This document shows positions 21,835 through 28,837 of a stretch of DNA of 64,000 nt, one piece after another; positions within the stretch are counted from its first letter, which is position 1, and each line of letters begins with the position of its first letter. The notes under the pieces were generated by a model. The model saw only the letters and a list, made by a program, of their open reading frames with translations, was not told the origin of the DNA and did no database searches. The stretch comes from Erwinia sp. 198. Lineage in GTDB: Bacteria > Pseudomonadota > Gammaproteobacteria > Enterobacterales > Enterobacteriaceae. Position numbers and translations under genes: made by a program. The stretch covers positions 62,001-126,000 of the forward strand of contig NZ_RHUM01000011.1 in NCBI RefSeq assembly GCF_003937915.1, in the 5' to 3' direction.

Positions 21835-22428
21835 TTCCGCACTCCCGTTTCAAATTGTAAGCCCGCGTTATTTAATTTGAGTACAGCCTATGTTTTAGCT
21901 CAGAGCGAGAAAATTGTTTCATTATCGCGCAGGCTTTGCATGCTCTATAATTAAAAACAGCAGGTTAAGCCGCCTCCTTTTATTTTGTTTAAGAATTTCC
22001 TCAGGGCATTTATAAGCGAAGCGGCATATTACGGCCGCTGCGCTTAATAATCCCGGCAGTAAGCGGCGTTTTATTGCCGCTGCGCTTATTAAGCACGCGG
22101 GTAAATGTAAGATTGTTGGCCGTTAAAACGCCCGTTGCCGCTGTAGAGCAACGCTTTGCTGGCCTTTTGCACGCCATAAAAGCGTTTAAAAGGGCCTTTT
22201 TTGTGCTTTGTTGTAAAGATGTTAATAAAGCACCAGGCTGATAATGGGTCAGAAAACCAACAACATATTGATTACTATAGTAAAAACTTAAACTAATCTT
22301 AACAAAATTAATGATTGAGTCGGGGGCTGAAAAGTCCTATATTGGCCGCGCTTTTTTACAGCGCTCACACTTTTAATTTATTTTTCAACCACGGCGTTAT
22401 TTATAACCCTGGTTGTAGGAGAGATATG
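21835..22428. promoter_or_regulatory. Long leader region of the dat-ddc genes with short repeats
   Basis: This ~590-bp region has no convincing ORF. It contains a near-perfect direct repeat (GCCGCTGCGCTTAATAA at 22034 and GCCGCTGCGCTTATTAA at 22076, 42 bp apart) and an inverted repeat with arms GTGCTTT (22203) and AAAGCAC (22226). The last 200 bp are AT-rich and probably contain the dat promoter. The repeats may be regulator sites; no regulator can be named. Confidence 0.4.
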
Positions 22429-23817
22429 ATGACGGATAAAGTCCGTATTGATAATTTTGGTGCGAATTCATCAGGAAACAATGAAGCGTTTTTAGCCCGT
22501 CAGGCTGAATATGAATCGAACGTGCGGAGCTATCCGCGCAAGCTGCCGTTCGCCATTGCTAAAGCACAGGGAGTCTGGATTACAGATGTTGAGAATAATC
22601 AATATCTTGACTGTCTTGCCGGTGCAGGTACGCTGGCGCTTGGCCACAACCACCCTGATATGCTGCAGAGCATCCAAAATGTCATTACCAGTGGCTTGCC
22701 GTTACATACGCTTGATTTGACGACGCCGTTGAAAGATGAATTTTCTGCCTACCTGCTCTCTTTACTGCCGGGCCAGGGCAAAGAGTACTGCCTGCAGTTC
22801 ACCGGCCCTTCCGGCGCTGACGCCGTAGAAGCCGCGCTGAAGCTGGCGAAAAAATACACCGGCCGTACCGGTGTGATCAGCTTCTCCGGCGGCTATCACG
22901 GCATGACCCACGGCGCGCTGGCGGTAACGGGCAACCTGTCGCCAAAAGAAGCCGTTAACGGCATGATGCCGGAAGTGCAGTTTATGCCTTATCCGCACCT
23001 GTACCGCTGCCCGCTGGGTATCGGCGGCAAGGCGGGCGAGCAGGCGCTGGCCTACTACTTTGAAAACCTGATTAACGACGTGGAAAGCGGCGTGCGTAAA
23101 CCTGCGGCGGTGATCCTGGAAGCGGTTCAGGGCGAAGGCGGCGTGAACCCGGCTCCGGTCGAGTGGCTGCAGCGCATCCGTAAAGTGACCCAGGAACACG
23201 GCATTCTGCTGATCCTGGACGAAGTGCAGGCCGGCTTCGCGCGTACCGGTAAGTTCTTCGCCTTCGAGCACGCGGGCATCGAGCCGGACATCATCGTAAT
23301 GTCCAAAGCCGTAGGCGGCGGTCTGCCGCTGGCCGTACTGGGCATCAAAAAGCAGTTCGACGCCTGGGCGCCGGGCCACCATACCGGTACCTTCCGCGGC
23401 AACCAGCTGGCGATGGCAACCGGTCTGACCACCCTGCGTCACCTGAAAGACAACAATATCGCTGATAAAGTTGCCGAACAGGGTGAATGGCTGAAAGCGA
23501 AACTGGCAGAGATGCAGAAGCGTTATCCGGTCATCGGCCACGTGCGCGGCCTGGGCCTGATGCTGGGCATTGAGATCGTCAAGCCGAACGAGCCTCAGGA
23601 TCATATGGGTTGCTACCCAGCCGACGGCGAGCTTTCCGCGCTGTTGCAGAAAAAATGCTTTGAAGCCGGCCTGATTCTGGAGCGCGGCGGCCGTCACGGC
23701 TGCGTGCTGCGCCTGCTGCCTTCGCTGCTGATCAGCAATGAAGAGCTGGGTGTTTTCCTGGATAAATTTGAAGTCGCCCTGGTTGCCGCCGGCGTTAAAC
23801 CTGTTTCTGCGGAGTGA
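22429..23817 (+). CDS. dat: Diaminobutyrate-2-oxoglutarate transaminase
   Basis: The 462-residue class III PLP aminotransferase makes L-2,4-diaminobutyrate from aspartate β-semialdehyde with glutamate as amino donor. It has [72 protein letters not shown] and the PLP lysine in [10 protein letters not shown], closely matching Acinetobacter Dat. Two ATGs (22426, 22429) follow AGGAGA; the second has better spacing. The decarboxylase gene ddc follows after 5 bp, so the pair forms a 1,3-diaminopropane pathway. Identification is strong. Confidence 0.94.
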
Positions 23818-23822
23818 AGTTA

Positions 23823-25280
23823 ATGTCCCGGTCCAACCCTATTCTGGCAGCTTCGGCGCAGAGCACCGAAGCCTACCAGCAGGCTATTGCCCAGACCAGC
23901 CAGGCCGTCGTGCAGTGGCTGCAGCAGCCTGAGATGTATCAGGGCAAAAGCGTAGCCGAGCTGCGTGAGCGTATCGCGCTGGATTTCACTACGGAAGGCC
24001 TGGGCAACCAGGCCGCCATTGAGCGTGCGATCGAGTATTTTCTGAAAGACAGTTTGTCTGTGCATCATCCGCAGTGCGTGGCGCACCTGCACTGCCCTAG
24101 CCTGGTGATTAGCCAGGCGGCGGAAGTGCTGATCAACGCCACCAACCAGAGCATGGACTCCTGGGATCAAAGCCCTTCAGCCACCATTATTGAGATGAAG
24201 CTGATCGAATGGCTGCGCGCTCGGGTCGGCTATCAGGCCGGCGACGCGGGGGTCTTCACCAGCGGCGGCACCCAGAGCAACCTGATGGGGTTGATGCTGG
24301 CGCGCGACGCATTCTTTGCGCGTCTGGGCCACTCTGTCCAGCAGGATGGTCTGCCGGGCGATCTCAGCAAGATCAAAGTGTTTTGCTCTGAAAACGCCCA
24401 CTTCTCCGTGCAGAAGAATATGGCGCTGATGGGTCTGGGCTATCGCTCCGTGACGCTGGTGAAAACCGATCGCTTTGCGCGTATGGATACGGCGGATCTG
24501 GCTGATAAACTGGCGCTGGCGAAAGCCAACGGCGAGAAAGTGCTGGCTATCGTCGCAACGGCGGGCACCACCGACGCGGGCGCTATCGATCCTTTGCGTG
24601 AAATCGCGCAGATCGCGGCAGAAAACGAAACCTGGCTGCACGTTGATGCGGCATGGGGCGGCGCGCTGCTGCTTTCTGAAAAGTATCGTCATTATCTGGA
24701 CGGCATCGAGCTGGTGGACTCCATCACCCTGGACTTCCACAAGCAGTTCTTCCAGACTATCAGCTGCGGTGCGTTCCTGCTGAAAGAAGCGCGTCACTAC
24801 GAGCTGATGCGTTACCAGGCGGCCTACCTGAACTCTGAGTTCGACGAAGCTCAGGGCGTACCGAACCTGGTTTCCAAATCTCTGCAAACCACGCGTCGTT
24901 TCGACGCGCTGAAAATGTGGATGGGTCTGGAAGCGCTGGGTCAGAAGCAGTATGCCGAAATCATCGATCACGGCGTAACGCTGGCGCAGCAGGTTGCGGC
25001 CTGGGTTGCCGAACAGCCTGCGCTGGAGCTGGTGATGGAGCCGCAGCTGGCCAGCGTGCTGTTCCGCTTCCGTCCGCAACAGGGCGACGATACGGCAATC
25101 GCCCTGCTTAATCAGAAAATCGGCGATGCGCTGCTGGATTCCGGACGCGCCAACGTAGGCGTGACCGAACACAATGGCGTAACCTGCCTGAAAATGACGC
25201 TGCTGAACCCAACCGTGACGCTGGAAGATATCAAGCTTCTGCTGGCGCTGGTAGAGCGCACTGCGGCTTCTCTCGCATAA
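23823..25280 (+). CDS. ddc: L-2,4-diaminobutyrate decarboxylase
   Basis: The 485-residue group II PLP decarboxylase converts L-2,4-diaminobutyrate to 1,3-diaminopropane and CO2. Seen in order are HLHCPSLVISQAAEVLINATNQSMDS-type substrate segment (short form HLHCPSL), GGTQSNLMGLMLARD, HFSVQKNMALMGLG, HVDAAWGGALLLS and the PLP lysine in LDFHKQFFQT. GGAG eight bases before the ATG at 23823 overlaps the dat stop, so the two are translated in one operon. A strong terminator follows. Group II relatives act on aromatic amino acids, but the dat neighbour settles the substrate with good confidence. Confidence 0.94.
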   Translation: MSRSNPILAASAQSTEAYQQAIAQTSQAVVQWLQQPEMYQGKSVAELRERIALDFTTEGLGNQAAIERAIEYFLKDSLSVHHPQCVAHLHCPSLVISQAAEVLINATNQSMDSWDQSPSATIIEMKLIEWLRARVGYQAGDAGVFTSGGTQSNLMGLMLARDAFFARLGHSVQQDGLPGDLSKIKVFCSENAHFSVQKNMALMGLGYRSVTLVKTDRFARMDTADLADKLALAKANGEKVLAIVATAGTTDAGAIDPLREIAQIAAENETWLHVDAAWGGALLLSEKYRHYLDGIELVDSITLDFHKQFFQTISCGAFLLKEARHYELMRYQAAYLNSEFDEAQGVPNLVSKSLQTTRRFDALKMWMGLEALGQKQYAEIIDHGVTLAQQVAAWVAEQPALELVMEPQLASVLFRFRPQQGDDTAIALLNQKIGDALLDSGRANVGVTEHNGVTCLKMTLLNPTVTLEDIKLLLALVERTAASLA

Positions 25281-25298
25281 GTCGTCCCGTACAGGTCA

Positions 25299-25330
25299 AA
25301 GCCGGTAACGCCCGTTACCGGCTTTTTTTT
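25299..25330 (+). terminator. Rho-independent terminator of dat-ddc
   Basis: AAGCCGGTAAC and GTTACCGGCTT form a perfect stem around a short loop and run directly into eight Ts. Confidence 0.9.
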
Positions 25331-25406: not shown

Positions 25407-25658
25407 TCAGCGTTTTCCGGTTAGCTGTTGCCGCTGGTCGCATCTGTTTCTGCTTTTATACCTTGAAGGCCATATATCTTCCGGGGACATTTCCACAGCC
25501 TTTGCAATCAGGCGCTCTCCTTTGGGCCAGGGCCGTCTTAAGGCATTAGCCAAAGTCGAGGCGGCCAGCCCCGCTTCTCGTGATACAGCGGACAGGTTGG
25601 TGCCCCTCTTTTTCAATAAGGCAATAATATCTGCCGGGTGCATATCATTTTTGTTCAT
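25407..25658 (-). CDS. Ner/Nlp-family winged helix regulator (SfsB-like)
   Basis: The 83-residue protein resembles E. coli SfsB/Nlp and phage Mu Ner: MHPADIIALLKKRGTNLSAVSREAGLAASTLANAL is the helix-turn-helix, followed by RPWPKGERLIAKAVEMSPEDIWPSRY. Ner-type proteins are small DNA-binding repressors or activators; SfsB affects maltose genes in E. coli. The C-terminal tail is short and basic. It lies between the dat-ddc terminator and the AT-rich LuxR pair; no target is obvious. Confidence 0.85.
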   Translation of the reverse strand: MNKNDMHPADIIALLKKRGTNLSAVSREAGLAASTLANALRRPWPKGERLIAKAVEMSPEDIWPSRYKSRNRCDQRQQLTGKR

Positions 25659-25839
25659 CGGTTTCCCTTATAGTGAGCAAGCTGGATTACTTTCCCTGAC
25701 GCTAAATGAGCCGTGTAATCTGGATTGCGTTACGGCTCAGGCTTTAAATTTTATCAATCGATGTTGTTAATAGTATTTCTACTATTGCCACTCCAGCCTG
25801 TTTTACGTTATTTATGCCAAGTGAAAAAAGGTCTGTTTG

Positions 25840-25903
25840 ATGTAAGGTTTTTTTAATGTAGGGTTCTTTTTATGTAGGGTTCTTTTTATGTAGGGTTACC
25901 GCT
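25840..25903 (+). repeat. Four 16-bp tandem start-stop repeats leading into the LuxR gene
   Basis: The unit ATGTAGGGTTCTTTTT occurs with ATG at 25840, 25856, 25872 and 25888, a strict 16-bp period. The middle two copies are identical and the outer two diverge (the first has ATGTAA, the last ends ACCGCT). The true start codon at 25904 falls on the same period. Each unit holds an ATG directly followed by a stop and an AGGG element nine bases before the next ATG, so it reads as an array of minimal start-stop uORFs with weak Shine-Dalgarno sites. Because 16 is not a multiple of 3, successive units rotate the reading frame. Confidence 0.85.
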
Positions 25904-26587
25904 ATGAAAATTCACTCGCTTCCAGAAAAACTTATTAATATGTTTGAAAACGATCCAATTGTTGGATGGGCAGTAAAAGACATTGATTCCAACTTTGTTT
26001 ACGTAAATAATGCTTTTAAGATATGGCAAACCATTTCCACCCGCTTCGATTACGAAGGGCTAAATATACGCGACGTCCCAGTCCCCGTAGCTGAATTTGC
26101 CGATATATTTGCCCGGCAGGAAAAAGAAATTGAGCAAACCGGAAAAGCGGTACGCGCTATTACCACGCATATTCAGGGTAAAGAGAAAATTCTGCAGCCC
26201 GCTTATAATATTCAGGAGCCGTTATTTAACGAACAGCATCAGTGCATCGGCACGGTGATCAGCGTCAGGCATATCAATATTATCACGCCAGGATCCCTGC
26301 TCAAGGGCAAACTCTGTCAGCATGCCACTCTTCAGCCGCCCTCGTCTGTCTTTACGGAAAAAGAGTGGGAAGTGGTTTATTTGTTACAGTGCAATTTAAG
26401 CCTGAAAGAAGTAGCCTGTGTGCTGGGCATCTCTATCCATGCCGTCAGTGGACGCCTGAGAAGCTGCTATCGTAAAGCGGAAGTGAGCTCATCTTCCATG
26501 CTGATTGAATTTTGTCGGGAGAAAAATATAGATAACTATGTTCCTGCCTTCTTTTTAAAAAAAGGGCACATTATCATTTCCGGATAA
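25904..26587 (+). CDS. PAS-LuxR transcriptional regulator, first of a tandem pair
   Basis: The 227-residue protein has an N-terminal PAS-like domain (NDPIVGWAVKDIDSNFVYVNNAFKIW, residues ~15-125) and a C-terminal LuxR-type helix-turn-helix (FTEKEWEVVYLLQCNLSLKEVACVLGISIHAVSGRLRSCYRKA), then a tail DNYVPAFFLKKGHI. The tail is shared with the next gene and is not part of the HTH. It is AT-rich compared with its neighbours. Translation starts at the ATG at 25904, behind the 16-bp start-stop repeats, with AGGG about nine bases upstream. The signal and targets are unknown. Confidence 0.83.
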   Translation: MKIHSLPEKLINMFENDPIVGWAVKDIDSNFVYVNNAFKIWQTISTRFDYEGLNIRDVPVPVAEFADIFARQEKEIEQTGKAVRAITTHIQGKEKILQPAYNIQEPLFNEQHQCIGTVISVRHINIITPGSLLKGKLCQHATLQPPSSVFTEKEWEVVYLLQCNLSLKEVACVLGISIHAVSGRLRSCYRKAEVSSSSMLIEFCREKNIDNYVPAFFLKKGHIIISG

Positions 26588-26592
26588 TAATA

Positions 26593-27249
26593 ATGGACTA
26601 TTACTTTAACCGTTCTTTGTTTGGATGGGCGATAAAAGACGCCTTTTCACGCTACGTTTACGCCAACCATGAAGCCTGTCTTTATTTTAATATGCCTTCC
26701 GAAAAAATAAAAGGCCATACGGACAAGGACTTATTCCCCGACCTCGTTGATTTTTACGAAACAATCATAAAGGATGACAAAAAGATTATAAATACAGGCG
26801 CTATGAGCATAGTTTTGAAGATTTTTAATCAAGAAGGAAATAACAGAAAACAGGCTTATTTGGTTGAAAAGCGTCTTTGGCAACTGCCTGACGGCTCACC
26901 TGGCATAATTTGTAATTATATTGAGATTACAAACATCTACTTTTCAACATTTCTGTATCAGCGCTCTCGTCAACCTCTTACTTTTACTGCGCCTTCCCCA
27001 CTTTTTACCGATCGGGAATGGGAGGTTATTCTGCTACTTTTATGTGGGATGAAAAAGGGGCGCATGTCCGCTATGCTCAACCTTAGCAAGCTGACGTTAA
27101 GAAACAGAATAGCCCGCTGCTGTGAAAAAGCTAACGTAATGAACGAAATTGCGCTTGCTCATTATTGCCAGCATAAAGGGTGGGATAATTATATTCCGCC
27201 GTTTTTTCTTAAAAAAGGATATATCACTTTTTCTGGCAAATTCGGCTGA
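26593..27249 (+). CDS. PAS-LuxR transcriptional regulator, second of a tandem pair
   Basis: The 218-residue paralogue starts 5 bp after the first gene's stop and has the same layout: a PAS-like domain (LFGWAIKDAFSRYVYANHEACLYF), a LuxR-type helix-turn-helix (FTDREWEVILLLLCGMKKGRMSAMLNLSKLTLRNRIARCCEKA), and the shared tail WDNYIPPFFLKKGYI. Sequence divergence outside the shared positions shows an old duplication. The two are likely co-transcribed and may form a heterodimer or respond to different signals. It is AT-rich like its partner, which suggests acquired DNA. A terminator follows. Confidence 0.82.
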   Translation: MDYYFNRSLFGWAIKDAFSRYVYANHEACLYFNMPSEKIKGHTDKDLFPDLVDFYETIIKDDKKIINTGAMSIVLKIFNQEGNNRKQAYLVEKRLWQLPDGSPGIICNYIEITNIYFSTFLYQRSRQPLTFTAPSPLFTDREWEVILLLLCGMKKGRMSAMLNLSKLTLRNRIARCCEKANVMNEIALAHYCQHKGWDNYIPPFFLKKGYITFSGKFG

Positions 27250-27297: not shown

Positions 27298-28494
27298 TTA
27301 CATCTGCACCAGATTTTTGATTTTCACATCCGGGTTGACGTCGGCGTCGTAATCCACGCCGTCCAGGCCAAAGCCGAACAGGTGCATAAACTCTGTTTTG
27401 TAGCCAACGAAGTCGGTCAGTTCGTTCAGGTTTTCGTTAGTGACGGTCGGCCACAGCTTCACCACTTCATCCTGCACTTCTGGCTGCAGCTCTTTGTAGT
27501 CGGCGCGCAGGCGGCCAACATCATCAAGAATTGGCGAAGTGTTGTACAGACTGTCTTTGAACAGGCCGTAAACCTGCTCGATGCAGCCTTCGTGAGTGCC
27601 TTTTTCCTTCATCACCTTAAACAGCAGCGACAGGTAAAGCGGCATTACCGGAATAGCAGAGCTGGCCTGGGTAACCACGGCTTTCAGTACGGAAACGCGC
27701 GCATCGCCGCCCTTTTCCGCCAGCGTGTCGCGAATAGTCAGGACGCGCTTGTCCAGGTCTTTCTTGGCTTCGCCAATAGAGCCGTTCCAGTAGATATCGT
27801 GAGTGATCTGCTCGCCAAGATAGGTAAAGGCGGTGGTTTTCGCGCCTTCAGCCAACACGCCGGCCGCATTCAGATCGTCAATCCACATCTGCCAGTCTTC
27901 GCCGCCCATCACCGCTACGGTGCCGTCGATCTCTTCCTGAGAAGCCGGTTCCAGCGTGATATCGGTAATGGTTTCTTTATCGGTGTTCAGACCGCGCGTG
28001 TGCAGCGTTTTGCCAACCGGTTTCAGCGTAGAGTTAAAGACTTCGCCGGTTTTTGGATGGGTGCGACGCGGCGCAGCCAGGCTGTATACCACCAGATCGA
28101 CCTGCCCCAGATCCTGTTTAATCAGTTCAATGGTCTTTTGCTTTACTTCGTCTGAGTAAGCGTCGCCGTTGATGCTTTTTGCATACAGGCCCTTCGCCTC
28201 CGCCAGCTCTTCAAAAGCCGCAGAGTTATACCAGCCAGCGGTAGCCGGTTTGTTTTCTTCGCCCGGACGCTCGAAGAACACGCCCAGCGTATCGGCTTCG
28301 CAGCCAAAGGCGGCAGAGATGCGGGCAGCAAGGCCATAACCCGTAGAAGCGCCGATCACCAGCACCTTTTTAGGGCCGTTGGCGATTTTGCCCTGGCGGG
28401 TCACGTAATCAATTTGTTTTTCAACGTTAGCTTTGCAACCCGCCGGATGGGCGGTAACACAGATGAAGCCACGAATGCGTGGTTTAATAATCAT
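27298..28494 (-). CDS. fabV: Enoyl-ACP reductase FabV (trans-2-enoyl-CoA/ACP reductase)
   Basis: The 398-residue protein catalyses NADH-dependent reduction of enoyl-ACP, the last step of fatty acid elongation. It begins [20 protein letters not shown], has the NADH motif [11 protein letters not shown], and the FabV active-site pair Tyr235 and Lys244 spaced Y-x8-K ([10 protein letters not shown]), which is wider than the Y-x6-K of FabI. Family length is about 400 aa. The ATG at 28494 has a GAGGT site. FabV is known to be triclosan-tolerant; in many Enterobacterales FabI is the main enzyme and FabV, when present, is a second one. Identification is firm. Confidence 0.96.
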
Positions 28495-28837
28495 GTCGAC
28501 CTCAATAACCGTCTCAGTAAATATGGCCCGTAGAATACCTGCTTGTGGCGTTTCAGGCAAAGTTGACGGTAGCTTATTGTCTACGGTCGCTTTTAACACG
28601 AGCGCTTTGCATATTATTTATTCAGTCTTTATACAACCGGTCGTGCCTGGGCTGGCGAAAAGCAGTAGCGGAACACGGAAACGCCGTGAACTCATTCGTA
28701 GGGGCTTGCTTATTGGTTCAGCCTCTGCCGCAGTGGAGCGATAGCGCTGCTGGCAAACACGCCAGCGTGCCGCCAGACCATTGAGTTTACCGTCAATCTC
28801 AAGGGAGGCCGCAGCCTCCCTTTACTTACCGCCTGAC
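28495..28837. other. Gap between eptB 3' end and fabV promoter
   Basis: About 340 bp holding the eptB terminator at its left end and the fabV promoter at its right end. Frames on the plus strand here are not coding-like. I see no small RNA signature. Confidence 0.5.
28801..28823 (-). terminator. Terminator-like hairpin downstream of eptB
   Basis: AAGGGAGGC and GCCTCCCTT form a perfect 9-bp stem 15 bp after the eptB stop (minus strand). Confidence 0.65.

Follow-up and report, generated by a model that had tools for sequence, protein, structure and literature searches.

LuxR-type DNA-binding domains act on rows of short asymmetric sites at the MalT boxes and the NarL heptamers, and phase-variable tandem repeats in promoters and leaders change by whole copies of a short unit beside the gene. 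Closest to the locus described here are the VqmA-VqmR system of Vibrio and the VqmA-qtip system of phage VP882. In the phage, VqmA-phage acts from a single intergenic region to activate both qtip, which lies next to it, and its own gene, and TAGGGGG stands at the start of the Pqtip fragment (PMC8284805). In V. parahaemolyticus, VqmA reportedly does not regulate itself, and F67, F99 and K101 are given as the residues that contact DPO (PMC10426928). The known VqmA sites are inverted, with the form GG-N6-CC or GG-N9-CC. Titles and abstract openings in one open-access literature collection describe no leader or array of the kind reported below, which is not proof of absence.

A 16-bp array ahead of a PAS-LuxR gene

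The window (the whole stretch of 64,000 nucleotides that was analysed) carries a tandem array that runs directly into the start codon of a PAS-LuxR gene, with the following features:

25824..25839, plus strand: degenerate fifth (5') unit AAAAAAGGTCTGTTTG, assigned by its 16-bp phase and by alignment with relatives
25840..25855, plus strand: array unit ATGTAAGGTTTTTTTA
25856..25871, plus strand: array unit ATGTAGGGTTCTTTTT
25872..25887, plus strand: array unit ATGTAGGGTTCTTTTT
25888..25903, plus strand: last array unit ATGTAGGGTTACCGCT, with AGGG as the gene's presumed Shine-Dalgarno site
25904..26587, plus strand: PAS-LuxR regulator gene, 227 aa, by profile match VqmA-like along almost the full length
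26593..27249, plus strand: second PAS-LuxR gene, 218 aa, in tandem, without an array before it

The preliminary description reported four 16-bp units in phase into the LuxR start codon, and this is what we find: the ATGs at 25840, 25856, 25872, 25888 and 25904 (the gene start) are all 16 bp apart, and the four ATG units carry, in 5' to 3' order, ATGTAAGGT, ATGTAGGGT, ATGTAGGGT and ATGTAGGGT. That count overlooked the degenerate in-phase fifth unit at 25824-25839, which takes the same position as the AAAGGT-like opening unit of relatives' arrays, and the AGGG ascribed to every unit is present in units 2 to 4, unit 1 having AAGG. Tandem Repeats Finder gave the array (25836-25897, period 16, 3.9 copies) a score of 96; the maximum was 71 on 40 dinucleotide shuffles of the whole window and 54 on 300 shuffles of the local 300 bp. 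The pattern TGTARGG-N9-TGTARGG has three overlapping matches at the array and matches nowhere else in the window's own genome. The array is neither a chance occurrence nor private to the window's strain.

A protein profile built from five sequences (the window's and four orthologs) matched the structures 6ide, 6ugl and 6kju with E values of about 2e-15 to 4e-15, and 7dwm at 4e-9; the best match was 6ide_A (E = 1.8e-15, residues 3-222). The search tool labels the matched structures only as LuxR-family, helix-turn-helix or transcriptional regulators, and we take 6ide, 6ugl and 6kju to be VqmA proteins. The 227-aa protein has no Pfam match at 1e-3, while its tandem partner has PAS_4 above cutoff and GerE at 21.4 bits, below the 23.5 cutoff of that family. 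A gene annotated as encoding a PAS domain-containing protein also comes after the ortholog on three plasmids, from Cedecea neteri, Pantoea sp. At-9b and Pantoea sp. Nvir, where the other neighbours differ. Paralogs are many, at about 30-37% identity; the E. coli genomes searched gave no match. A third PAS-LuxR homolog of the window's own genome (G000:C3:112841-113446) has 28% identity, with one internal TAG within the match.

Just upstream of this region the window encodes, at 22315-25280, a decarboxylase related to 2,4-diaminobutyrate decarboxylase (NCBIfam match below cutoff) together with what looks by eye like an aminotransferase ORF, and it has a terminator-like site at 25298-25325. The PAS-LuxR pair is followed by a FabV-type enoyl-ACP reductase gene at 27298-28599 on the minus strand (NF043048, 671 bits).

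The array in relatives

Orthologs of the PAS-LuxR protein, at 65-74% protein identity, were found in four of 37 genomes of the window's genus (its own included), 15 of 25 of a second genus, eight of 61 of a third and one of eight of the Cedecea genus, absence meaning no match at the E limits of these searches; they occur further in four named genomes and three plasmids, which overlap in part with the genus sets. As judged by eye, the array stands before the gene in all 28 distinct ortholog upstreams, the window's included, and a consensus scan places the units on a 16-bp register. In 15 representatives, for which unit offsets were set by hand, we assigned four to seven units, the degenerate ones by phase, their register being an assignment (for example the third unit of L034, L035, L073 and L078). 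Internal spacing in these representatives is 17 bp once and otherwise 16, and the distance from the start of the last unit to the ATG is 16 bp in 12 and 17 bp in three. The order of unit types is largely kept: an AAAGGT-like unit, often GTACGG second, GTAGGGT-like units, and the ribosome-site unit last.

A three-unit pattern with at most one mismatch, which misses diverged arrays, matched nine of 392 family genomes, five of the nine being these arrays; its backward control matched 16 genomes by hand count, against nine forward. No 16-bp lag was found before paralogs among the best 60 of 93 upstreams scored, by a method insensitive enough to give low scores also to the true arrays L078, L059 and L065; two paralog upstreams showed other lags, 25 in L006 and 14 in L012.

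The preliminary description suggested that copy number could vary, and between close relatives it does so in exact 16-bp units. L066 has one exact extra unit relative to L064 and L069, with 99.4% identity in the first 660 bases of the gene; L076 likewise exceeds L079 by one (99.1%). The collections hold about one genome per species, and the differences seen are between genomes. Since exact unit differences separate relatives that are 99% identical, whole units come and go over short times.

Conserved positions within the units

Unit statistics cover 20 of the 28 distinct upstreams, which contribute 43 distinct non-final and 16 final units, with offsets placed manually once the consensus scan was done, most of the 5' AAAGGT-like units left out, and identical units within a lineage counted once. 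The conserved part is a core, GTARGGT: positions 3-9 hold 0.87-2.19 bits each and positions 10-12 hold 0.13-0.21, with 0.55-0.76 bits at positions 1-2 (A1 0.62, T2 0.76) and at the T-rich positions 13-15. Position 9 is T in 35 of the 43 non-final units versus one of the 16 final units (Fisher P = 1.6e-7, kinship among units ignored); it is A in 12 of the final units, and the sole final unit with T is the window's. Mean anti-Shine-Dalgarno pairing is -3.3 kcal/mol for non-final versus -6.3 kcal/mol for final units. The window's final unit pairs at -3.6 kcal/mol, less strongly than any other final unit, and as a ribosome site it does not surpass the other units. Given the T after GG and the weak pairing, the non-final units do not look as if they were kept as ribosome sites; the contrast makes selection for ribosome binding visible in the last unit only, and not in the window's. 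The array would be phased to the start codon because its last unit serves as the Shine-Dalgarno site.

Within lineages, variable columns are about as frequent in the core as in the spacer (4/21 versus 7/27, P = 0.73, in one lineage; 8/42 versus 16/54, P = 0.34, in another). They are fewer in the array than in the 64 bp 5' of it (11/48 versus 32/64; 24/96 versus 44/64), a flank counted ungapped, so its variability may be inflated.

The divergent side

A hairpin and a block TTTCCCTG-n-TTGGC are common to relatives on the upstream side of the array. The window has three features in this region:

25776..25789, minus strand: putative window version of the block TTTCCCTG-n-TTGGC, assigned by alignment, reading TTTCTACTATTGCC on the plus strand
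25708..25738, minus strand: inverted repeat GAGCCG...CGGCTC without a U tract, about where several relatives have a terminator hairpin
25407..25658, minus strand: divergent gene for an HTH_35 (SfsB/Ner-like) DNA-binding protein, 83 aa

Three parts make up the element in relatives: the seed-like block GCCAAYGC(n)CAGGGAAA, a stretch rich in A/U, and the hairpin (examples are L034:3778-3871, L035:3778-3872 and L044:3779-3871, all on the minus strand, and relatives). A minus-strand run of at least four T directly follows the hairpin in five of nine lineages, and a sixth (L032) has TTT; two of the three genera have a strong terminator, in the second genus the hairpin/terminator is decayed in the sequences folded, and we found no terminator of the relatives' type in the window or in Cedecea. 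Of the six pairs in the consensus stem, four show two-sided changes in one or more sequences, and the consensus energy is weak, at -4.0 kcal/mol. Since the GCCAAYGC(n)CAGGGAAA block is one base longer in some lineages than in others, we rejected a protein-coding reading of it on the minus strand.

A model of the element, R1, built from 14 training sequences of these loci, was searched genome-wide in the three genera, and within the fetched loci in Cedecea. Scoring at least 40 bits, it matched directly upstream of the gene in 15/15, 8/8 and 3/4 gene-bearing genomes of the second, the third and the window's genus; matches at training loci arise by construction because R1 was trained on them, and held-out close relatives match too. 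In genomes without the gene the counts, in the same order, were 0/10, 0/53 and 0/33, with a best match of 33 bits (8/8 and 0/53 were obtained under stricter search filters). The RNA-like element thus lies divergently upstream in 26 of 27 gene-bearing genomes of the three genera, the exception being the window; at E up to 1, R1 matched neither the window nor the Cedecea loci. Candidatus Pantoea varia is one of the relatives with a strong R1 match. With an exact seed, seven listed second-genus loci, which R1 found, were missed, as were the Cedecea loci. Rfam had no match in the window or in four relatives, and none at gathering score for the element in the five loci searched. Weak R1 matches elsewhere (24-33 bits) were taken as chance; all seven such loci given to Rfam overlap Rev39 5'UTR (RF02744).

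We regard this divergent element with its predicted intrinsic terminator beside the PAS-LuxR gene as a candidate new small RNA. In the window, the HTH_35 gene is what the minus strand could transcribe. Relatives of this HTH_35/SfsB-like protein, at 52-71% identity (one partial, 57%), also lie near other PAS-LuxR paralogs (L010, L021, L023 and L011).

A putative operator row

We propose that the array forms a conserved operator row that acts in both directions and most likely serves the VqmA-like PAS-LuxR protein itself, and we would give this reading a probability of roughly 55%. A row of GTARGGT-core sites spaced 16 bp apart would lie between the PAS-LuxR gene and a divergent unit, and the adjacent VqmA-like regulator, or its tandem partner, would bind this row cooperatively. 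Once bound, it would act on the divergent unit, which in the window is the HTH_35 gene and in most relatives the RNA-like element, as well as on its own gene, for which the last unit is the ribosome site; occupancy, and with it strength, would depend on copy number. The ATG-stop look would have two sources, the core motif (ATGTAGGGT) and the second use of the last unit, as a Shine-Dalgarno site.

Several observations count against this proposal: core and spacer are about equally variable in the two lineages, R1 is missing in the window and the Cedecea loci, the second-genus terminator is decayed, the window's final unit does not stand out as a ribosome site, and VqmA of V. parahaemolyticus reportedly leaves its own gene unregulated. 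With all arrays linked by descent, their uniform orientation does not count as independent evidence. As for the presumed promoters, we recognised none in the window, and minus-strand -10-like hexamers seen by eye are weak and missing in some lineages. To our knowledge, none of the GacA, NarL, GerE and MalT motifs fits the units exactly. No GG-N6-CC or GG-N9-CC palindrome is found inside the array in any of the 12 upstreams checked; three of the 12 have a GGnnnTTGGCC-type match at -107, outside the array.

More tentatively, the locus may be part of a new quorum-sensing-like module of plant- and insect-associated enterobacteria, in which a VqmA-like receptor would act through a tunable row of direct 16-bp half-sites, with its own ribosome site at one end and a new divergent small RNA family at the other, row length being an evolvable gain control. 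If the operator-row reading holds, the whole-unit differences between close relatives would be a natural series of operator lengths, and the RNA-like element an undescribed small-RNA family beside a receptor without a known ligand.

Alternative explanations

The alternative that does best, which we nevertheless consider unlikely, is that the units act at the RNA level, the transcribed units binding an RNA-binding protein or small RNA that controls access of ribosomes to the last unit. Every array seen is in the sense orientation and directly against the start codon, with the presumed ribosome site as its last unit. Structure prediction gives the window's leader less structure than its shuffles (z = +1.29), so that the units could be accessible. 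Against action on RNA, the 5' end of the array keeps its own units (AAAGGT-like, often GTACGG) beside the divergent element, where an RNA leader would not need them, there is no Rfam family match, and most RNA-binding proteins do not need exact 16-nt spacing. Two particular forms of RNA control were rejected: the leader, with a stability below that of its shuffles, gives no sign of a riboswitch-like fold, and the GGA of CsrA sites is by eye absent from most non-final units.

Less probable still is the interpretation put forward in the preliminary description, in which the ATG-stop units serve as decoy starts or minimal upstream frames and translation is tuned through their number. Whole-unit copy number differences accord with it, ATGTAG persists in one lineage (L043, L076) where the unit's GGG is lost, and a start-stop (with ATG, GTG or TTG as start) is present in 22 of the 43 distinct non-final units, slightly above the 18.8 +/- 1.7 expected from shuffling columns (P = 0.06). 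The other 21 are not start-stop, and so the property is not conserved as such; units with start or stop broken and a GYARGG-type core kept are common (AGGTAC, CGGTAG, CTGTAG, TTGCAA and ATGCAG are examples), and L044, with seven units assigned, has a start-stop in the last only. The non-final units, mostly with T after GG and with weak anti-Shine-Dalgarno pairing, also speak against this interpretation. The start-stop look does not hold up as a functional property and probably comes about incidentally, through repetition of a binding site, instead of being a device for translation; if so, it would be a caution that binding motifs can leave ATG-stop patterns in leaders as by-products. Translational coupling is possible in single lineages: by eye, short upstream frames with a TGA that overlaps the gene's ATG occur in the last 40 bases before the gene in L043 and L076, and at the L044 unit at -32.

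Neutral or nearly neutral tandem duplication of a ribosome-binding segment, carried by slippage, is quite improbable: it would account for the exact whole-unit differences between close relatives, the two identical window units and the near-equal core and spacer variability, but not for an array kept in 28/28 distinct upstreams, less variable than the (ungapped) 64 bp 5' of it, whose units have diverged within single arrays with core and 16-bp register kept.

Comparison with known systems

The MalT boxes and NarL heptamers differ from the array in motif and spacing. With phase-variable tandem repeats the array shares whole-unit copy number change, seen in two lineages; unlike them, its units are diverged and conserved over species. 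The PAS4-LuxR solos of Photorhabdus and related bacteria have the same domain order (PMC4235431), and the second window gene has a PAS_4 match; the first differs in lacking a Pfam match at 1e-3, and no 16-bp array was found in paralog upstreams (best 60 of 93).

The VqmA systems remain the nearest. Of the DPO-contact residues one F and the K are kept, and F99 aligns with Q91 (by eye, with chain numbering taken as shifted by one). Where a VqmA operator is one palindrome, the loci here have four to seven direct repeats at 16 bp, and none of the 12 arrays checked holds the palindromic form; their RNA-like element is absent in the window and has no Rfam match in the five loci searched. Because known VqmA sites are inverted and no such site lies inside the arrays, a direct-repeat arrangement would be new for the VqmA family, and, if the operator-row reading is right, rows of direct half-sites would also be used by a LuxR-type receptor family whose known sites are palindromic. 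The likenesses to VqmA-VqmR and VqmA-qtip are a regulator with PAS and LuxR-type DNA-binding parts similar over its full length (match residues 3-222), a small, putatively transcribed unit linked to the regulator gene in most relatives, and an AGGG-type half-site, the TAGGG of the window's sites recurring in the TAGGGGG given for Pqtip of phage VP882.
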